This document shows, in pieces, positions 1 through 16,062 of a stretch of 31,297 nt of DNA; the first letter of the stretch is position 1; the number at the start of each line of letters is the position of its first letter. This DNA comes from a virus. Both the position numbers and the translations under genes were made by a program. The notes under the pieces were generated by a model. That model ran no database searches, was not told where the DNA came from, and saw only the letters and a list, made by a program, of their open reading frames with translations. The DNA lies in IMG/VR virus record IMGVR_UViG_3300043540_000402, positions 1 to 31,297 of that record. One strand, given 5' to 3'.

Positions 1-66
1 AGCATAATGCTAATATTGATACTGTCATATCAAAAAATGATAATAGATGCAAGCAAAAAATGAAAT

Positions 67-102
67 TCGAATCGAATTGATCGAATCGAATTGAATCGAA
101 TC
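67..102. repeat. 14-bp tandem repeat
   Basis: Two perfect tandem copies of TCGAATCGAATTGA (67-80 and 81-94) are followed by a partial copy, ATCGAATC. The tract is built from CGAAT words. I see no gene around it, and its role is unknown; it lies at the outer edge of the putative origin region. Confidence 0.7.
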
Positions 103-570
103 TTCAGACGACAAACGAAAAAGCTTGTCAAACGATTCTAAGGCCATTTAAGCGCCAAAATTCATTGAGCCATACGTTTCACCTTGCCATATCAGAAAAA
201 CCGCTTAAAAAGCTTCTCACGCTATTTGAACACGATAAAATAAAACAAACATAATCCCCCCATATACATCATAAAAATGAGGATAATATCCAACTTTCTC
301 AATTTATCCCCGTTCCACAAAAAATAAACTCTCCACAATCCACAAAAAGCACAGATATCCTCCATATATATAAAATTTGTTTATCCCACAGATGTTTATC
401 CAACTTTTACCTATCCCCCAAAAACCAAAATTATCCCCAAAAAACAGTATTCAATTTTCCAAATGTGGTTCCGGCGTTTGCCGATTAAGGACAAAATTTT
501 GATTTTCCCAAAACTTTATCCACGGATTTTTAGGGTAGGATATCCTAAATGAGGATCATTCAGTGTTTGT
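103..570. other. AT-rich non-coding region with DnaA-box-like words
   Basis: I see no convincing gene here. From about 300 to 525 there are several + strand words close to the DnaA box (TTATCCACA): TTATCCACG near 517, TTATCCCACA near 381, and TTATCCCC or TTATCCAAC near 304, 397 and 430. A 12-bp palindrome, TAGGATATCCTA, lies at 536-547. AT-rich DNA with DnaA-like words next to the iterons that follow is the usual make-up of a plasmid-type origin. None of the boxes is a perfect match, so DnaA binding is inference. Confidence 0.35.
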
Positions 571-809
571 ATATCCGTTCGCTGATTGCATATCCGATTC
601 GGAAACAGGATGTCTATTCAGCGAACGGATATACATTCGCTGAACGCATATCCTATTCGTGAACGGGATGTCCTCTTTGTGAACGGGATGTCCATTTAGT
701 GAACGGGATGTCCTCTTTGTGAACGGGATGTCCATTTAGTGAACGAAACGTCCTCTTTGTGAACGGGATATCCATTCGCTGAATGGATATCCAATTTGTG
801 ACGTTTCGT
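571..809. repeat. Iteron array, candidate replication origin
   Basis: Nine direct repeats of 19-20 bp run head to tail from 623 to 799, starting at 623, 642, 661, 681, 701, 721, 741, 761 and 781. The central units read GAACGGGATGTCC followed by CTCTTTGT or ATTTAGT in alternation, which gives a 40-bp higher-order period. The outer units are diverged. An inverted half-site, ATATCCGTTC (571-580), mirrors GAACGGATAT (623-632). ACGAAACGTC (743-752) is mirrored by GACGTTTCGT (800-809). Direct repeats of about 20 bp spaced two helical turns apart, with an inverted half-copy, are characteristic of iteron origins bound by a plasmid Rep initiator. No classical Rep gene is visible in the window. A transcriptional operator array is the main alternative. 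Confidence 0.7.
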
Positions 810-930
810 CCTATTTTTCCCAAAGTCGATTTTTCCCAAAGCTGTTTGGCATATTTCGATTCTGCTTTGCCAAAAACTGCTGTTTGCTGAATCTGTCTTC
901 AATTGGATATAAGACGGTATCATTTTTCCC

Positions 931-959
931 TTGACCTATTGAAAAAAACGATGTATAGA
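931..959 (+). promoter_or_regulatory. Sigma70-type promoter for the 1101 gene
   Basis: TTGACC (931-936) is separated by exactly 17 bp from TATAGA (954-959). It lies about 140 bp upstream of the start codon at 1101, leaving a long structured leader. The nearby repeated TTTTTCCCAAAG words (about 813-840) could be operator sequences. Confidence 0.6.
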
Positions 960-1006
960 GGAATCAAACAGTATATATACGGTCTTTGATAATCGATGGG
1001 TTTTGG

Positions 1007-1074
1007 TTTTTCTTGTGGGAATTTTTCCTTCCTTTTTTCCCACAAGAAAAAAATAATCGGAAAAAGGAAGGAAA
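1007..1074 (+). promoter_or_regulatory. Structured mRNA leader, possible pseudoknot
   Basis: TTTTTCTTGTGGGAA (1007-1021) pairs perfectly over 15 bp with TTCCCACAAGAAAAA (1037-1051). The loop between them contains TTTTCCTTCCTTTTT (1023-1037), which is a perfect 15-nt complement of AAAAAGGAAGGAAAA (1060-1074) just upstream of the ribosome site at 1088-1093. The loop-to-downstream pairing makes an H-type pseudoknot, or two competing helices, possible. It probably controls transcription read-through or translation of the 1101 gene; the mechanism is inference. Confidence 0.5.
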
Positions 1075-1100
1075 ATCAAATACATATAAGGAGAAGAGCA

Positions 1101-1601
1101 ATGAAAAAGGAAATGGCAAAGGAACAAGGAAAAGAAACAGAACAACAAAAAATGGCAAGGGAAAAGTTCCTTGCAACGCTTGAGCGGAAAGCCAGAAAGC
1201 AATTTCTGGCTGATACGAAAGAATATGAACGTTGCATTTATCTGCAGACCACAAAGAAAGAAATGGAACTGATAAAAGAGAAGATGCAAACGTTAGAAAA
1301 GCGCTTGCGAAGATTAGGTACTTCATCGACAACGTCAACAACGTCAACAAAGTCTATTTCATCGACATCTTCAACGATAGACTTTAAGTCTATCGCTCAA
1401 GCCATGAAGGGTGAGAAAAAACCCAAGGAATTGGGTGAGAAGGAACGCAAGGTGTACCAGAAGGTACATTCCTATTCAACATGTTTCAAGTCTGAAGCAT
1501 GGGGACTCAATGAATTGAGTCCTTCGAATATTTCCGCTCTTGAGGGGTGGAAAAAATCAACCGTTAGGACGTATTGGGAACAAATACATCCTTTGCTGTA
1601 G
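1101..1601 (+). CDS. Unknown coiled-coil protein with C-terminal helix-turn-helix-like segment
   Basis: The protein has 166 residues and I do not recognise its family. ATG 1101 is chosen because AAGGAG (1088-1093) sits at the right distance; an in-frame ATG at 996 lies inside the structured leader. Residues 1-73 are highly charged and helical, probably a coiled coil. A Ser/Thr-rich linker follows at about 74-92. The C-terminal part ends in a segment containing NISALEGWKKSTVRTYW, which resembles a helix-turn-helix recognition unit. It lies between an iteron array and a parS site and has its own promoter and structured leader. A role as replication initiator, partition accessory or local repressor is therefore plausible, but this rests on position and a weak HTH resemblance. 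No catalytic motif is visible. A hairpin (1610-1645) closes the transcript. Confidence 0.7.
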   Translation: MKKEMAKEQGKETEQQKMAREKFLATLERKARKQFLADTKEYERCIYLQTTKKEMELIKEKMQTLEKRLRRLGTSSTTSTTSTKSISSTSSTIDFKSIAQAMKGEKKPKELGEKERKVYQKVHSYSTCFKSEAWGLNELSPSNISALEGWKKSTVRTYWEQIHPLL

Positions 1602-1609
1602 GTCTCGAT

Positions 1610-1645
1610 AACATCTGGCAGGCGATAGGAAACCTGCCAGATGTT
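1610..1645 (+). terminator. Hairpin terminator after the 1101 gene
   Basis: AACATCTGGCAGG (1610-1622) and CCTGCCAGATGTT (1633-1645) form a perfect 13-bp stem with a 10-nt loop, 8 nt after the stop codon. There is no clean T-run, so termination may be weak or the hairpin may act in another way. Its 3' arm overlaps the first bases of the parS palindrome. Confidence 0.55.
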
Positions 1646-1657
1646 TCACGTGAAACA
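1642..1657. other. parS: Canonical parS centromere site (ParB-binding)
   Basis: TGTTTCACGTGAAACA is a perfect 16-bp palindrome and an exact match to the bacterial chromosomal parS consensus TGTTNCACGTGAAACA, the site loaded by ParB-family CTP-dependent clamps. It lies between two hairpins (1610-1645 and 1657-1691). A chance match of this quality in a window this long is expected roughly 3 times in 100,000 under equal base frequencies. No parA or parB gene is in the window, so the binding protein would be supplied by the host or by phage genes elsewhere. Confidence 0.85.
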
Positions 1658-1691
1658 TGGGATAACCAATAAAATCGGTGGGTTATCCCAT
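1657..1691. repeat. Inverted repeat abutting parS
   Basis: ATGGGATAACC (1657-1667) pairs with GGTTATCCCAT (1681-1691) over 11 bp around a 13-nt loop. It begins on the last base of parS, so parS is bracketed by hairpins. It could be a terminator for the opposite strand or part of a partition complex. Confidence 0.5.
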
Positions 1692-1750
1692 ATCCCCCAC
1701 CCGTCGGATGTTGGGATAGTTTTTTGTTGGCAAAATCGGCACCTCACCAC

Positions 1751-2074
1751 AAAATTTTTTGTAGATTTTGGATGGATTTTGCAAATTTTGGATGGATTTT
1801 TTAAATGGTACCCCACCATAAAATTTTTTGTGGATTTTGGATGGATTGGGAAAATTGGATAAACAGACAAAAGTGGATAAATAGACAAAATTTTTTGTAG
1901 ATTTTGGATGGATTGGGAAAATTGGATATATGGAGAAAACGATGCCTCCCCACAAAATTTTTTGTGGATTTTGGATGGATTGGTCATTTCTCCCATAAAA
2001 TTTTTTGTGGATTTTGAATGGATAGGGTAAATTGGATAAATAGACAAAATTTTTTGTGGATTTTGGATGGATTG
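1751..2074. repeat. Six dispersed copies of a 28-bp AT-rich repeat
   Basis: A unit starting AAAATTTTTTGTGGATTTTG and continuing GATGGATT recurs at 1751, 1820, 1887, 1954, 1997 and 2046, with spacings of 69, 67, 67, 43 and 49 bp. Between copies, variants of AAATTGGATAAATAGACA recur. The array lies just to the right of parS. Open frames across it are repeat artefacts. It may be a protein-binding or spreading array or simply repeat-expanded DNA. From the end of the array to about 2340 I see only T-rich DNA without a gene. Confidence 0.7.
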
Positions 2075-2339
2075 GTATATACTGGACAAAGCATTTATTT
2101 GTGGGATATATCAGAAGTTGGATAATATAGTTTGTATATATGTATATGATGTGGATATTTATATTTCTTTGAATCAGTGTCTATATTTGTTCCTTACGTT
2201 TGTTTTTGATTCCTATGTATTTTAGTTCTTGGATTCTTTTGTTCTTGGATTCTTTTATTTTGAAATTATTTGTGTCCTTCCTTGTTTCTGTTTATCCTTC
2301 CTTGTTTTTTCTTATCCTTTTAGTGTTTATTTTTGAAAT

Positions 2340-2982
2340 TATTTATCCAACTTGTTTGATTTTTATTTATCCAACTCATTTGATTTTTGTGAAAAATACA
2401 ATTTTTGGATTTTGATTTTTCTGTATATAGGAGCAGATTTTTTTATTTTGTGTAAAATCAGATGGTTAATTTTTTGGGGAATTTTCTGTGGAATCTGACA
2501 ATCTGTGTGGATACAGTATTTTCGGTTGGATAATTGGAGGAAAATTGTATTATTTGATTGGATAACGATGAATACTGGGTTTGCTGGAGTCAATGTTTAT
2601 CGAGGTGGATAAATGAATGTCTGTTTGGTGTTATTTTTTGATTTTTCCCTCGCCCCATGTGCAGAGAGTGAATGGTGCTTGAATGAAATCCTTAAAAATC
2701 AAACGGTTACAATTTTAGAGAATTTTGATGGAATTTTATCAAATTTTTTTGTTTTTTGTTTGTTTGAAATTTTTGTTTTGCATAAAAATCAAACAGTTAC
2801 AAATCCGATTAAAATCTGATTGTTTGATTTTTTAATTTTTGATAAATTTTGATTTATCCAACTATCCAACTTTTTATTTTATCCAACTTTTTGTTGGATA
2901 AATATTTATCCAACAAGGATTTATCCAAAAAGGATTTATCCAACAAGGAGGATAAATATTTTGGTTTTGTTGGATATAAATA
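2340..2982. repeat. TTATCCAAC repeat cluster 1, non-coding
   Basis: This gene-free, T-rich stretch has scattered TTATCCAAC and GTTGGATAA words that become dense from 2858. A perfect inverted pair, TTTATCCAAC (2878-2887) and GTTGGATAAA (2893-2902), encloses a T5 loop. AAAAATCAAACGGTTACAA (2694-2712) recurs with one change at 2784-2802, and GTTTGATTTTTT (2822-2833) is its partial inverse. Short open frames here have no plausible starts or protein-like composition. Confidence 0.6.
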
Positions 2983-3011
2983 TTGACTTTGCAATATGTA
3001 TAATATATTTT
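2983..3011 (+). promoter_or_regulatory. Promoter for the 3043 gene
   Basis: TTGACT (2983-2988) is followed at 17 bp by TATTTT (3006-3011); TATAAT at 2999-3004 is an overlapping alternative -10. The arrangement and the shared ATATGTATA word resemble the promoter ahead of the terminase genes (5103-5131), which suggests common control. Confidence 0.5.
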
Positions 3012-3042
3012 ATCCTTAAAAACAAGAAAGGAGGGATTCAAT

Positions 3043-3384
3043 ATGACTGTTGTTTATGTGGATGTAATCAAAAAATTAAGTTTGGAGAAACTTGTTCGAA
3101 CATATAGAGAAAACTATCCATGCAATCCTGAACTTATGCAGTTGTTGGATGAGTTGGATTATTTGATTGCAAATCCAACTCAACACAGGATTGGTCCATA
3201 TACTCCACCAAAAAACTCATCGGATGGAAAAAAACAAAAAAAGAGGAGAAAACGTAAATACAAGGAGGAGGATAATGTCACGATCAGGTATAATAAAACA
3301 CAAACAGGACGTGGACGCAATGTTTTCAAAAATTTGAAGACAGGATCAGAGGACAATAGATTGGATTTTATCCAAAACACTTGA
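3043..3384 (+). CDS. Small basic protein of unknown function
   Basis: The protein has 113 residues and I do not recognise it. The start is well supported: AAAGGAGGG lies directly upstream (from about 3027) and a promoter lies at 2983-3011. Residues 1-50 look like a small alpha-helical domain (SLEKLVRTYRENYPCNPELM). A very basic tract, KKQKKRRKRKYK, follows at about residues 63-74, and then a polar tail. Strong basicity suggests nucleic-acid binding. It is the only credible gene in about 3.6 kb of repeats, so it may act on those repeats or be a small regulator. A second strong ribosome site (AAGGAGGAGG, 3262-3271) lies inside the gene, ahead of an out-of-frame ATG at 3275 with a 20-codon frame. 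A hairpin at 3391 may end the transcript. Confidence 0.6.
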   Translation: MTVVYVDVIKKLSLEKLVRTYRENYPCNPELMQLLDELDYLIANPTQHRIGPYTPPKNSSDGKKQKKRRKRKYKEEDNVTIRYNKTQTGRGRNVFKNLKTGSEDNRLDFIQNT

Positions 3385-3390
3385 TCGAGG

Positions 3391-3417
3391 ATTTATCCAA
3401 CTTTTTGTTGGATAAAT
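3391..3417. terminator. Palindromic hairpin after the 3043 gene
   Basis: ATTTATCCAAC (3391-3401), loop TTTTT, and GTTGGATAAAT (3407-3417) make a perfect 11-bp stem, 6 nt after the stop codon. The same element recurs around 2878 and 5016. It may be a bidirectional terminator or a binding site for a dimeric protein; it is too AT-rich to be a confident intrinsic terminator. Confidence 0.4.
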
Positions 3418-3795
3418 ATTTTGTTTATCCAACAAAGTTTATTTATCCAACTTTTTATTTATCCAACAAAGTATTTATCCAATGACAAAATACTTTGTTT
3501 TATCCAACAAATGGGATAAACGGATTTGTTTTTATCCAACTATCCAATTGAAAAACAAATCAGTTTATCCAAGGACAAGAAAAACATTTATCCAAGGATA
3601 AAACAAAGTATTTATCCAATGGACGAAATAATTTATTTATCCAACTATTTGTTGGATGAATTTTTTGTTTATCCATTGGATAAAACAAAGTATTTATCCA
3701 AGTACAAACTGATTTGTTTATCCAACTATATAAATATAAAATAATTTGTTTATCCAACTATCCAATTAAATAACAAATCAGTTTATCCAACCCAG
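3418..3795. repeat. TTATCCAAC repeat cluster 2, non-coding
   Basis: TTTATCCAA followed by C, T or G recurs every 15-40 bp in this stretch, mostly in one orientation, with a few GTTGGATAA copies. It also contains TATCCAACTATCCAA doublets near 3536, 3640 and 3755. No coding sequence is credible: the open frames simply translate the repeat. Confidence 0.65.
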
Positions 3796-3920
3796 GGATA
3801 AATCCTTGATCAAGGATAAAGCAAGTAAGGACCGAGGATAAAGCAAGTAAGGACCGAGGATAAAGCAAGTAAGGACCGAGGATAAAGCAAGTAAGGACCG
3901 AGGATAAATCCTTGATCAAG
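3796..3920. repeat. Four perfect 22-bp tandem repeats with flanking 19-bp direct repeats
   Basis: A 22-bp unit (starting AGGATAAAGCAAG, ending TAAGGACCG) is repeated perfectly at 3813, 3835, 3857 and 3879, with a partial fifth copy at 3901-3908. The array is bounded by two identical copies of GGATAAATCCTTGATCAAG (3796-3814 and 3902-3920), each containing CTTGATCAAG, a 10-bp palindrome. The unit length and lack of divergence match a second iteron or centromere-type protein-binding array. Confidence 0.75.
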
Positions 3921-3979
3921 TAATCCTGTACATTTCTTGGTCCTATCTATTCCTTTGCTAAATAAAACGAAATCTCCCC

Positions 3980-4046
3980 GAAAACCTGGAGAAACAAAGT
4001 ATAGGCTTGCTCCGCAAGCCGTATACTGCAGTTTCGTAAGGTTTTC
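3980..4046 (+). other. Long imperfect hairpin A
   Basis: Nested pairings are GAAAACCT (3980-3987) with AGGTTTTC (4039-4046), GAAAC (3991-3995) with GTTTC (4031-4035), GTATA (3999-4003) with TATAC (4022-4026), and GGCTTGC (4004-4010) with GCAAGCC (4014-4020) around a TCC loop. This 67-nt rod has symmetric internal loops, as in a folded RNA or a single-stranded DNA hairpin. No gene overlaps it credibly. Confidence 0.6.
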
Positions 4047-4047
4047 C

Positions 4048-4124
4048 GTTTTTGTGCGATGGTTGTTATGAGCAAAGGCTTGCGAAGCAAGCCTGTAGCT
4101 ACATAACAACCTGAGCACAAAAAC
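4048..4124 (+). other. Long imperfect hairpin B
   Basis: Nested pairings are GTTTTTGTGC (4048-4057) with GCACAAAAAC (4115-4124), GGTTGTTATG (4061-4070) with CATAACAACC (4102-4111), and AGGCTTGC (4076-4083) with GCAAGCCT (4087-4094) around a GAA loop. It begins 2 nt after hairpin A ends and has the same GGCTTGC-N3-GCAAGCC tip. Together the two rods look like a paired structural element, either RNA or DNA. Confidence 0.6.
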
Positions 4125-4136
4125 TTTCTGCAAGTG

Positions 4137-4199
4137 ATGTTTCAATTTGGAACAGGATAGATTTTGTAATGTTTCAATTTGGAACAGGATAGATTTTGT
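4137..4199. repeat. 31-bp direct repeat, two copies
   Basis: A 31-bp unit beginning ATGTTTCAATTTGGAACAGG is present perfectly at 4137-4167 and 4169-4199, separated by one base. The spacing is too short for a CRISPR spacer. Function unknown. Confidence 0.7.
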
Positions 4200-4218
4200 T
4201 GGATTGAATCAAAATTTC

Positions 4219-4321
4219 AAAATTTTTTCGAAAAAATTTTTCCGCGACAAATGAAATAATATCCAAATCCTCATATTAAATTTCTAACGAAATTTAATAT
4301 TCATATTTAGATATTATTTCA
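4219..4321. repeat. Palindrome and long AT-rich hairpin
   Basis: A perfect 22-bp palindrome centred on TTCGAA spans 4219-4240. It is followed by a 70-nt hairpin: TGAAATAATATC (4252-4263) with GATATTATTTCA (4310-4321), AAAT with ATTT, and ATATTAAATTT (4273-4283) with AAATTTAATAT (4290-4300) around CTAACG. With hairpins A and B this makes a run of cruciform-capable sequences within 340 bp. Confidence 0.55.
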
Positions 4322-4362
4322 TTCAGGAGGATCTTGTTATTAGTATCTAATATCCAGGACTT

Positions 4363-4452
4363 ACGCGCGCGCGCGAGAGTACTTGCGCGTGAGTACTTGC
4401 GCGAGTACTCGTGCGCGCGTATATATTTGCGCGAGTACTCGTGCGCGCGTAT
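4363..4452. repeat. CG-rich alternating purine-pyrimidine block
   Basis: In strongly AT-rich surroundings, this block is made of GCGCGC runs and four AGTACT palindromes. A 26-bp unit (starting TTGCGCGAGTACTCG) is duplicated at 4397-4422 and 4427-4452. The left half is an approximate inverse of the right half. Alternating CG/GT steps favour Z-DNA. From 4453 to about 4617 I see no gene, only a short inverted pair, GGCTCT and AGAGCC, near 4549-4572. Confidence 0.6.
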
Positions 4453-4561
4453 TAAAGATCGATTTTAAGGCACCTAATAGACCGAATAAGCCAAACCATA
4501 TCTGATCTGGTGTGATTCTCTTCCCCACCATGATAATTTTGATCCTTGAGGCTCTCAGTTC

Positions 4562-4601
4562 GTTTTAGAGCCATTCCTGAATCAGTTTTCGGACCAAAAA
4601 C
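4562..4601 (+). other. Solitary type II CRISPR-repeat-like sequence (tentative)
   Basis: The 40-nt stretch begins GTTTTAGAGC, identical to the first 10 nt of the Streptococcus pyogenes-type II-A repeat, and ends GGACCAAAAAC, close to its GGTCCCAAAAC end. The middle does not align well, the length is 40 rather than 36, and there is only one copy. Terminal GTTTT and AAAAC are complementary, as in type II repeats. It could be coincidence. Confidence 0.2.
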
Positions 4602-4617
4602 GGGGGTGTCTCGAACC

Positions 4618-5036
4618 AAGTTGGATAAATATGGAAATAATTTGTTTTATCCAACAAAATTTGTTTACCCAACTATCCAACAAAATTTTGTTGGATAAAT
4701 ATTTTGTTTATCCAACTATCCAACTTTTGATTTATCCAGCAAAATTCTATTGAACAAATCAAAAGTTGGATAAATAAATTTCACTTGATGAAACTTTGTT
4801 GGATAAATCAAAGTTGGATAAAATATTTGTATATTTATCCAACCAAATTCTATTGAAAATAATTTATTTATCCAACAAAATTTATTTATACAACTATCCA
4901 ACAGAATTTATCCAACAAAATTCTGTTGGATAAATATTTTGTTTATCCAATTATCCAACAAATTATTTTATCAAATTATTTAATTATCCAACAAAATATT
5001 TATCCAACTTTGATTTATCCAACTTTTTGTTGGATA
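4618..5036. repeat. TTATCCAAC repeat cluster 3, non-coding
   Basis: This is the densest cluster, with TTATCCAAC and GTTGGATAA in both orientations. Composite palindromes include a perfect 24-bp one at 4674-4697, a 12-bp stem at 4906-4935 (ATTTATCCAACA with TGTTGGATAAAT), and TATCCAAC-T5-GTTGGATA at 5016-5036. No gene is credible. The cluster ends just before the terminase promoter. Confidence 0.65.
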
Positions 5037-5102
5037 TATCCACTAATTTTTAATTAAATTTATCCTTTTTTCATTGATTTTGATAAAAATGTTGAAAATC
5101 CT

Positions 5103-5174
5103 TTGACTTTTCCATGAAATATGTATATTTTGTACCAAAATTATGGAAAATTTATCGAAATTTTCCATAATTTT
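5103..5174 (+). promoter_or_regulatory. Terminase-operon promoter with 17-bp hairpin operator
   Basis: TTGACT (5103-5108) is followed at 17 bp by TATTTT (5126-5131). Immediately downstream, a perfect 17-bp inverted repeat (5137-5153 and 5158-5174) encloses an ATCG loop. TTTTCCAT occurs at 5108-5115 (overlapping the -35 region) and at 5161-5168, and its inverse ATGGAAAA at 5143-5150. This is the layout of a repressor or activator operator, or of a transcript hairpin that modulates expression. It is the probable entry point for the packaging and head operon. Confidence 0.6.
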
Positions 5175-5208
5175 GTTGATAATTTCAACCTAAAATAGGA
5201 CTATGTCC

Positions 5209-9656: not shown

Positions 9657-10760
9657 ATGGACAAAAAAATTACAGTTTCATCCAATGCATTGTGTTTCGC
9701 TGATCCTGGTTGTTTTGCAATAACAAGTGTACAAGAAACCGAACCTGAGAAAAAAGTAAAACTGAATATGAAAGTTTATTCAGGATCGGTTATCAAAGGA
9801 CACTGGTATTGGGGTGATTTGGCAATTGATCTTTCTGGTATTGATGTACAAGGAGAAAAATTTCCGATTTTAGAAGATCATGATGTTTACAGAAGAATTG
9901 GATTTTCTGGAAAACCTGTTATACAGGATGATGGAGTTCACATCGATCCTGAAACCACTGTTTTGGTTGATACACCTACCGCTAATGAGTTTGTAGCATT
10001 GTCCAAACAAGGATTTCCTTTCCAATCAAGCATTTCAATTATCCCTCTTTCTGTAGAACGAATCGATGAGGATGTTGAAACTACTGTGAATGGGTATTCG
10101 TTTAAGGGGCCGGGTACCATTTTTAGGAAATCTTTGTATCGTGAAGCTTCAGTGTGTGTGTTTGGTTGGGATTCCGCCACATCATCCACTGTTGCAGGAA
10201 TGTCGAAATCTAATGGAGAATTAGAATTGAATTTTAAGGAAACCGTTGTTGGGAAGGAGGTTGAAAAACTGATGGATATCACTGAATTGAAAGAAAAATA
10301 TCCTGATTTGATTCAAAAAATTCAGGAAGAGGTTAAAGCGGAACTGTCCAAGACCACTCCAAAAAATCAAGAAACGGAAACTTTGATTGCCGAACTATCT
10401 CAGAAACTCCAGGCAAGTGAAGCAAAGGTTCTTGAATTGGAGAAAAAGGATGCTATCCGTGCCGAACGAGAAATTTCTCTTCGAGCGGAGAACATCTGGA
10501 CAGTCAAATTGTCGGAATCTTCTCTAAACGAAAGCTTGTATCCTAAAGTTCGGAAGCATGTTTCTCATACAGACTTTGTTAAAGATGGAAAGTTTGATGA
10601 GGAAGGTTTTTCGAAGGCAATTGATGCAGAGATTGAAGATTGGGAAAAACTTATTCCGACTTCAACTCCAGTAATTGGAACAGGTTTCTCTCATGATGCT
10701 ACGAAAGTAACTGTTGAGAAAACCATTTCCGATCTTGCTGCGTTGGCTGGTATTAAATAA
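9657..10760 (+). CDS. Prohead protease fused to scaffold domain
   Basis: The protein has 367 residues. ATG 9657 is preceded by GGGAGG; an in-frame ATG at 9627 lacks a ribosome site. The N-terminal 200 residues have the features of a herpesvirus-assemblin-type prohead protease: a candidate catalytic His in ILEDHD (about H75), a candidate Ser in FQSSISI (about 124-127), and the family segment YREASVCVFGWDSA. A charged, helical coiled-coil region with repeated Glu and Lys (about 205-285) looks like an internal scaffold. The C-terminal part (about 290-367) would contact the capsid protein. Protease and scaffold in one chain is known in many siphoviruses. It would shape the prohead and then be degraded. 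The position just before decoration and capsid genes agrees. Confidence 0.82.
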   Translation: MDKKITVSSNALCFADPGCFAITSVQETEPEKKVKLNMKVYSGSVIKGHWYWGDLAIDLSGIDVQGEKFPILEDHDVYRRIGFSGKPVIQDDGVHIDPETTVLVDTPTANEFVALSKQGFPFQSSISIIPLSVERIDEDVETTVNGYSFKGPGTIFRKSLYREASVCVFGWDSATSSTVAGMSKSNGELELNFKETVVGKEVEKLMDITELKEKYPDLIQKIQEEVKAELSKTTPKNQETETLIAELSQKLQASEAKVLELEKKDAIRAEREISLRAENIWTVKLSESSLNESLYPKVRKHVSHTDFVKDGKFDEEGFSKAIDAEIEDWEKLIPTSTPVIGTGFSHDATKVTVEKTISDLAALAGIK

Positions 10761-14067: not shown

Positions 14068-16062
14068 ATGAAGAAAAAAGTTTTGATGGTTGGCGAGCAT
14101 CCATTTGGTTTTACTGGCAACAGTATGATGATGCTGTCAATACTTGAAAAATTAAATTTGTCTAAATACAATCCCATTATTTTTTGTCCTACAAATGTTC
14201 CCACCTATAATCCAACAACGACATTAAAAATAGTTCCAGATATTGTGTCCTCTGAAGAGGAAAAGGATGAATGGGGCAATAAAAAACTGGTTCAATTTTT
14301 AAGTAACGAAAAAACGGATGTTTTGTTGTTTGTTGGTATCGATTTTTGGCGTTATCTCAAAATTTTCCCTGATATTAAAAATCTAAAACGAGAAAATAAG
14401 TTCTATTTTTTAGGAATTATCCCATACGATATCCATTATGTGCGGAAAGAATGGATAGCTTTCTTAAAATTATTTGATCACATTGGATTTTATTCTGAGT
14501 TTGGATATAATTTAACAAAAGATATTTTACCCAACACATCACTATTTCGTCCTCCAATGATGAACATGGAGTTATTTCATCCAATAGACGAATCTCGAAA
14601 AATTAAATTGAAAAAAGAAATATTTCCTTTTCTTCCTGAGAATGGGTTTTTGTTTGGATGTGTTTGTGGAAATCAATTTCGAAAAGACCCTCAAACTACT
14701 CTTTTAGCTTTTAGAAAACTCATTGATATTAAAGACAATGTTTATTTTTATATGCATACATCATTGGATAATGGAGTGTATAATTTAGAACAATTTGTCA
14801 ATGATTTAGAATTTCCAAAAAATAAAGTTTTTTTCAAAGACCCACATACCAGACTACCTTTTAATTTGATGCCAAAACTCTATTCTATTTTTGATTGCTA
14901 TGTGAATTGCTCTCTTCAAGAAGGTTTGTCATGGACTGTGCTTCAATCTTTGTTGTGTGGTACTCCTGTTTTGATTTCTGATACAACTGCACATAAAGAT
15001 TTTAATGGACTTCCTGGAGTTGAGTATGTTGTTCCTGACAGAACTTGTTATATTCCAATTTATACAAGTAGTGGACAATCTTGGATAGAAACAAAAGGTT
15101 GTGACGAAAACAAAATCCTTGATGGAATGATCAAAGCTATTGATCATAAAACAAATAGTAATGAAATTTCTAATTCTGCTAAAAAATTTTATTGTCCTTC
15201 CAACATAAATGAGTTTTTAGGCAATATCGTCCAAGCCCCAAAGATTCAAAATGCTTTTGTGTTTGCACAACATTCATCGGCTGGTGATGTTCTAATGACA
15301 ACACGAAGTTTCAAGGCATTGAAAGAAAGACATCCAGATAAAAAATTTATCTATATGACACAGAAACAATACTTTGATATTTTAAAAAATAATCCTTATA
15401 TCGATTCATTGATTGATTGGGACGAATCTGTATTCAATAAATATGAAATTTGCTATAATCCACATGGAGATAGAATTTTGAAAGGCGAATTTAATAGTTT
15501 AGATGTGAAACTGTCTGATATATATCACAAACTATTAGGTGTAGAGCCAAATGATTTCTTTATCCATGAAGAATCAATCAATAATATCCAACTTCCAGAA
15601 CATTTTGTAATTATCCATTCATCTGGTCAGGAGAAATTTTATCGAACATATAAAAACATGAACCAAGTTGTAAAACGAATTCCATATCCAACTATTCAAA
15701 TTGGTTCATTGGATGATCTTTATTGTCCTAATGTAACACTTGATTTAAGAGAAAAACTCACATTTAATCAGACAGCATGGTTAATGAAACGAGCAAAAGC
15801 AGCTATTGTGATCGACTCCTTTCCATCCCATCTTGCAGGAGCTTTAGGAACTCCTGTCGTTGTACTTTATGGTCCTGCACCAGCACGAGTTACAGGTCCT
15901 GTAGGCGATCCATCAAAAATTAGAAATGTTGAACCTGATAAATTGAAATACTGTAAAAGACTTACAAATTGTTGGGGGCGTTTTAGAGGATGCAAAGAAC
16001 CTTGTATCGATAAACTGACGGTGGATGAAATAGTCAAATCATTTCAGGAATTGGTGGGATAA
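14068..16062 (+). CDS. Bifunctional glycosyltransferase, GT4-like plus GT9-like
   Basis: The 664-residue protein has a perfect AAAGGAGG site upstream. Residues 1 to about 390 look like a GT-B fold GT4 enzyme: a Gly-rich N-terminal EHPFGFTGNSMMML, GCVCGNQFRKDPQTTLLAF (about 197-215) and NCSLQEGLSWTVLQSLLCGT (280-299). In the last motif the family's E-x7-E pair is E285...Q293, so the second Glu is replaced. Residues about 395-664 resemble GT9 heptosyltransferases: HSSAGDVLMTTRSFKAL (402-418), FVIIHSSGQ, and IDSFPSHLAGALGTPVVVLY (582-601). It probably transfers sugars from activated donors to a virion protein or a host glycan; the acceptor is unknown. It is embedded between head and tail genes, which points to virion glycosylation or cargo gained by transfer. 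The DNA is more AT-rich than the capsid genes. Confidence 0.85.
   Translation: MKKKVLMVGEHPFGFTGNSMMMLSILEKLNLSKYNPIIFCPTNVPTYNPTTTLKIVPDIVSSEEEKDEWGNKKLVQFLSNEKTDVLLFVGIDFWRYLKIFPDIKNLKRENKFYFLGIIPYDIHYVRKEWIAFLKLFDHIGFYSEFGYNLTKDILPNTSLFRPPMMNMELFHPIDESRKIKLKKEIFPFLPENGFLFGCVCGNQFRKDPQTTLLAFRKLIDIKDNVYFYMHTSLDNGVYNLEQFVNDLEFPKNKVFFKDPHTRLPFNLMPKLYSIFDCYVNCSLQEGLSWTVLQSLLCGTPVLISDTTAHKDFNGLPGVEYVVPDRTCYIPIYTSSGQSWIETKGCDENKILDGMIKAIDHKTNSNEISNSAKKFYCPSNINEFLGNIVQAPKIQNAFVFAQHSSAGDVLMTTRSFKALKERHPDKKFIYMTQKQYFDILKNNPYIDSLIDWDESVFNKYEICYNPHGDRILKGEFNSLDVKLSDIYHKLLGVEPNDFFIHEESINNIQLPEHFVIIHSSGQEKFYRTYKNMNQVVKRIPYPTIQIGSLDDLYCPNVTLDLREKLTFNQTAWLMKRAKAAIVIDSFPSHLAGALGTPVVVLYGPAPARVTGPVGDPSKIRNVEPDKLKYCKRLTNCWGRFRGCKEPCIDKLTVDEIVKSFQELVG

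Follow-up and report, generated by a model that had tools for sequence, protein, structure and literature searches.

A twelve-unit iteron-like array at a strand-composition switch as the probable replication origin of an uncultured phage lineage

Introduction

The iterons bound by the O protein of phage lambda have embedded symmetry. There are four of them, each 18 bp long, inside gene O and joined to an AT-rich stretch, as described in the cited part of PMC3349717. In the lytic phage SPP1, gp38 binds direct repeats at oriL and oriR, from which theta replication proceeds with a DnaB-family helicase; oriL is embedded in the initiator gene, and an AT-rich unwinding element is present at both origins (cited part of PMC6316719). 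Plasmid iterons measure 17-22 bp and, in the origins of P1, F, RK2 and R6K, stand in tandem near two-turn spacing (cited part of PMC4980987). The extrachromosomal mycobacteriophages RedRock and Miko combine a phage origin with partition repeats and encode ParA and ParB (cited part of PMC7157519).

Here we analyse a virus record of 31,297 bases (the window, meaning the whole stretch of DNA analysed), which is a 31-kb fragment of a genome, and describe near its left end an array of 12 iteron-like units, probably the site where an initiator binds within a theta replication origin that belongs to the phage itself. The 19-20 bp units fit the plasmid range and, as in the iteron plasmids, are arranged in tandem near two-turn spacing; unlike those plasmids, the locus shows no Rep_3 initiator, no exact DnaA box (window 1-5200) and no plasmid match, and is accompanied by a phage replisome. 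As at oriL and oriR of SPP1, direct repeats would serve as (putative) initiator sites in theta replication with a DnaB-family helicase, but the array is intergenic, no AT-rich unwinding element adjoins it, and no relative of gp38 was recognised here. It shares short iterons and embedded symmetry with the lambda origin, and a distant relative (G3) has an O-like/DnaD-like initiator, whereas no O-like protein was found in close relatives and the 12 units lie outside genes. The probable phage origin and the partition-type repeat recall RedRock and Miko, although neither ParA nor ParB was found in the 14 records searched. An uncultured group of 80-90 kb phages thereby gains a likely origin described down to the sequence level; a limited literature search found no replication origin assigned in this lineage.

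Methods

Relatives were collected by searching viral contigs with the capsid protein, which gave 54 loci. Two close relatives among them, G001 (44,999 b) and G002 (24,916 b), were turned to the window direction and are referred to as G1 and G2; G3 denotes G003. The unit consensus was derived from 12 units of the window, 8 of G1 and 9 of G2 (29 in all), without the tenth unit of G2. Non-coding skew in the window was computed from positions 1-535 (left) and 1602-3040 (right). The partition search covered ParA and ParB, and the plasmid initiator search covered Rep_3 alone.

Results

Relatives of the window

G1 and G2 are approximately 94-98% identical to the window over the structural genes and just 71-74% identical across the array region (longest alignments), where the position and order of the array and the adjacent gene 1101 are unchanged in both. 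The array had no match in phage and plasmid collections. A 15-mer from the array unit gave 75 single matches in viral contigs, of which only one (L065, from G001) was recognised as related, the others being at about chance level by our estimate; a two-unit pattern search gave 0 matches. In other relatives, seven near-identical 23-bp repeats at the edge of one contig (L105) and three 20/21-bp repeats in another (L088) are unrelated to the array in sequence and were not counted as support.

Architecture of the array

571-806, + strand: array of 12 iteron-like units of 19/20 bp that contain dyads, unit sequence ATRTCC(N)YTTNNTGAAC(R)GG

When split at the ATRTCC word, the units start at 571, 590, 610, 629, 648, 668, 688, 708, 728, 748, 768 and 787, and every one is 19 or 20 bp long; the array thus shows the multiple in-register direct repeats, roughly 17-22 bp in length, that are expected of an iteron origin. 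A preliminary description of this DNA had reported nine units at two-helical-turn spacing: the array itself is real, but the count is 12, and the spacing is approximate because 19-20 bp corresponds to 1.8-1.9 turns. Two further details of that description were confirmed, namely the alternating subtypes, seen in the middle units (TCTTTGTGAACGGG at 668, 708 and 748, ATTTAGTGAACG at 688 and 728), and the inverted half-copy at 571-580, which is the exact reverse complement of 623-632.

When chained at 19/20 spacing, the motif forms runs of 12 (window), 8 (G1) and 10 (G2) links, and since the longest chain in 200 dinucleotide shuffles of the window was 3, a chance origin of the array is ruled out. 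The opposite strand also yields a chain of 8. Partial dyads occur within the units, with three axes having at least 9 of 12 pairs, where 500 mononucleotide shuffles average 0.16; a reversed-sequence control is uninformative here because reversal preserves dyads. The unit consensus is common to the window, G1 and G2, with positions T4 and A15 invariant (29/29 units) and C5, T9 and G14 (28/29) and C6 (27/29) nearly so, and the outermost units are the best kept across the three sequences.

Flanking non-coding elements

240-530, + strand: C-rich non-coding left flank with TTATCC words (TTATCCCCA at 431, TTATCCACG at 516, TTATCCAAC at 396)
467-491, + strand: 25-bp block GGTTCCGGCGTTTGCCGATTAAGGA, identical in G1 and G2 although the flank around it has diverged, and containing a short CGGC/GCCG dyad
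1710-2075, + strand: G-rich non-coding right flank with AATTTTTTGTGGATTTTGGATGGAT repeats, partly the inverse of the left flank
2343-5037, + strand: dispersed TTTATCCAAC words, about 60 sites with at most 1 mismatch, between the probable origin region and the terminase genes

DnaA-box-like words had been noted upstream of the array. Two one-mismatch words are indeed present there on the + strand (those at 431 and 516, and only those), but the signal is weak, the exact box TTATCCACA being absent from window 1-5200; G1 has one exact box. One-mismatch words number 10 in the first 5.2 kb versus 3.6 per 5.2 kb elsewhere, and the TTATCC words of the left flank are possible sites for DnaA-like or other proteins. 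The conserved 25-bp block, used as a query against viral contigs, returned G001 and G002 only. AT content is 53-58% in the array and 60-69% in the flanks, and no AT-rich unwinding element lies next to the array, stretches of at least 76% AT being 1.4-2 kb off. The TTTATCCAAC words occur in both orientations at spacings of around 16-33 bp, and are present in G1 and G2 too. The non-coding DNA also has GGATAAAGCAAGTAAGGACCGA repeated in tandem and a block of palindromic GCGCGAGTACTCGTGCGCGCG repeats, at window 3835-3905 and 4360-4452.

GC skew and probable origin position

The preliminary description had predicted a GC-skew switch at the array as a check on its origin reading, and the switch was found. 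Cumulative skew reaches its minimum at 523 in the window (array 571-806), 15341 in G1 (array 14951-15106) and 10786 in G2 (array 10499-10693), that is, 50-350 bp from the array, and at a homologous place in distant relatives; the origin reading is accordingly supported. Non-coding DNA is C-rich to the left of the array and G-rich to its right in all three sequences (left/right skew of -0.315/+0.269 in the window, -0.193/+0.271 in G1 and -0.222/+0.244 in G2), and therefore the switch is not purely a coding effect. The array thus coincides with the strand-composition switch expected of an origin, which is partly confounded with gene direction; G1 genes diverge from the array region on either side, with the left arm starting more than 1.5 kb from the array. 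Minority-strand genes, based on mechanically called open reading frames, mostly follow the skew of their half and not that of their own strand. The minus half of G4, for example, contains 7 plus-strand genes with a skew of -0.082, and the plus half of G9 contains 3 minus-strand genes with a skew of +0.122. The contrary cases, at +0.024 to +0.08, are plus-strand genes of the minus halves of G1 (1), G5 (1), G6 (1) and G7 (2).

Among distant relatives, six of seven long records (G3, G4, G5, G6, G7 and G9; G8 was without a TerS match) have their skew minimum upstream of the TerS-like gene, at a distance of 0.1-4.6 kb. The more distant relative G3 (82.5 kb) carries a 99-bp exact terminal direct repeat and is therefore probably complete and apparently circular, the tool nonetheless classing it as linear. 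Its minimum lies upstream of the terminase, at the same place as in the window, and its maximum almost diametrically opposite, the two splitting the genome into arcs of 40.5 and 42.0 kb. The array was not detected in the distant relatives that share this minimum, and therefore cannot define their origins.

Promoter-like site and leader of gene 1101

931-959, + strand: sigma70-like promoter of gene 1101, TTGACC, 17 bp, TATAGA, read from alignments
1007-1075, + strand: two perfect inverted repeats of 15 bp that interleave, one at 1007-1021/1037-1051 and the other at 1023-1037/1061-1075
1101-1601, + strand: gene 1101, 166 aa, 72-residue helix, Ser/Thr linker and small helical C-terminal domain, hypervariable, candidate array-binding protein

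The promoter-like site is not listed by a strict consensus promoter scan; its counterparts in G1 and G2 read TTGACA/TATAAG and TTGACC/TATAAG with spacing unchanged. The interleaved inverted repeats, placed between this site and the start codon of gene 1101, are unique among 1561 window stretches and were reached by 0 of 2000 shuffles. Both recur in G1 and G2 with changed letters that still pair, the second repeat being shorter in G1, although such paired changes would be equally expected from DNA-level dyads. Judging from the interleaved arrangement, the leader RNA has a pseudoknot topology and is possibly a pseudoknot or RNA switch, while stems of this length may be mutually exclusive. The minimum-energy fold contains the second stem, and its stability is not unusual (z -1.5). 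Every Rfam match fell below threshold; all except one were to microRNA models, and we took them as chance.

The gene 1101 protein

In the AlphaFold2 model (mean pLDDT 77.5, pTM 0.41, from just 3 sequences), the 1101 protein has a 72-residue helix that a disordered linker joins to a small helical domain. Fold searches returned none at E <=0.001, sequence comparison with the PDB gave nothing significant, the gene had no match in phage and plasmid collections, and a profile search of viral contigs returned G001 and G002 only. A Pfam MG280 match at a loose limit (E 0.0013, below the curated cut-off) lies over the coiled coil and was taken as coiled-coil similarity.

Gene 1101 is linked to the array in 3/3 sequences. 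Between G1 and G2 the TerL and TerS-like genes are 100% identical and gene 3043 97%, the array and left flank are intermediate (88-91%), and gene 1101 is 67% identical in DNA and 63% in protein, with a synonymous divergence of 1.4 (against the window it is saturated and not computable). This hypervariability is sharply bounded and adjoins the probable origin. Old alleles acquired via recombination, we infer, fit the divergence better than local drift. Since the unit consensus is common to all three sequences, the specificity of the 1101 protein, if it binds the array, would be without visible change, which counts against simple co-evolution of the two.

Replisome and initiator candidates

The replisome genes of G1 encode a DnaG-like primase, a ResIII-type helicase and a DnaB-like helicase, together with a weak processivity-factor match and, at the record end, a UDG domain and a 3'-5' exonuclease domain; G3 also encodes PolA, a gp32-like protein and a DNA polymerase III delta-type ATPase. 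Between its DnaB-like helicase and primase genes, G3 codes for a 451-aa winged-helix protein matching phage replication-initiation/DnaD-like families (HTH_36 3.5e-13, phrog_270 4.4e-12, phrog_186 2.2e-10). The syntenic proteins of G1 (263 aa) and G4 (287 aa) match each other weakly (E 0.013) and gave no winged-helix/DnaD-like match; the profile joining the G1, G3 and G4 proteins was itself built from those three. The window does not extend to this region, and from its position and co-divergence the gene 1101 product is an origin-linked candidate initiator.

Plasmid and partition functions

1642-1657, no strand assigned: parS-like palindrome TGTTTCACGTGAAACA, exact 16-mer, window only

The locus had been read as a plasmid-type origin and, with a parS site, as support for a phage-plasmid lifestyle; neither reading is supported. 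In none of 14 records, several of which are fragments, was a ParA-type ATPase, ParB, a tyrosine integrase or a Rep_3 initiator found, while control genomes were positive. A search of the repeat unit among plasmids, which had been suggested as a check, gave 0 matches, as did gene 1101; the capsid protein gave one distant match only (27.7% identity across half of the protein), and the relatives encode a phage replisome. The 16-mer, named parS following the earlier reading, is missing from all 11 relatives even when up to 2 mismatches are allowed, and other sequence stands in its place in both G1 and G2.

Discussion

The array lies at the strand-composition switch and the head of divergent gene arms, and is kept in two relatives with varying unit number, and the phage lineage encodes a primase, a DnaB-like helicase and PolA of its own, which makes the iteron part of a theta origin its probable identity; by analogy, this origin would work like those of SPP1 or lambda. 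A phage initiator, perhaps the 1101 product or an O/DnaD-like left-arm protein, would bind the units cooperatively, bend and open nearby DNA, and load a DnaB-like helicase, so that the circularised genome is replicated in both directions prior to concatemer formation, with unit number shifting through tandem duplication and loss. Several points count against this reading: gene direction changes at the place where the skew does, some minority-strand genes depart from the skew of their half, the DNA next to the array is not strongly AT-rich, distant relatives with the same skew minimum were not found to carry the array, and the window covers just 31 kb of a genome.

An operator or enhancer, through which a phage regulator (perhaps the 1101 product) controls the 931-959 promoter and the divergent left arm, would agree with the embedded dyads, the setting between divergent gene arms, and the distance of approximately 125 bp to a promoter-like site that is kept in three sequences. 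Twelve contiguous units are, however, far beyond a usual operator; the array does not overlap the promoter, the left arm of G1 begins far from it, and the skew switch would be left unexplained, making this reading unlikely. Tandem repeats adjoining gene 1101, and an exact parS 16-mer 836 bp away, would suit a centromere whose units are bound by a host or phage adaptor in the manner of parC/parS repeats, and parS repeat arrays are carried by RedRock-type phages (cited part of PMC7157519), but given 0/14 records with ParA or ParB (ParM-like and TubZ-like partners aside) and relatives devoid of the 16-mer, we regard a centromere as very unlikely.

A pac-like packaging or concatemer-processing element is very improbable: the array does lie in non-coding DNA, with the TerS-like gene 4.4 kb downstream, and origin and pac can be close neighbours, as in ICP1 (cited part of PMC7145576), but the TTTATCCAAC sites are far nearer TerS than the array, and a packaging function does not predict a skew switch.

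Within the theta-origin reading, a split, exchangeable initiator can be envisaged. The O/DnaD-like protein of G3 would combine the DNA-binding winged helix with a C-terminal domain, whereas in the clade of the window the syntenic protein would lack the winged helix and the hypervariable 1101 protein would have taken over recognition of the iterons; its translation would be set by the leader pseudoknot, and 1101 and array alleles would be exchanged between phages. We consider this quite unlikely; if true, phages infecting the same cell would fall into origin-compatibility types according to their 1101/array alleles. The sharp limits of the hypervariable gene next to a probable origin raise a testable question, namely whether phages diversify their origins as plasmids diversify incompatibility groups.

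Three observations concern other parts of these genomes. The left arm of G001 starts with an amidoligase-like protein (435 aa) adjoining a 261-aa protein without a family match (L138, 11936-14047). Within the structural gene block, window 14068-16062 encodes a protein of 664 aa that matches glycosyltransferase family 9 and group 1. A 5-kb contig (L156) filed under a Bacteriovoracaceae MAG carries a capsid fragment that is 76% identical, the sole match among genome contigs.
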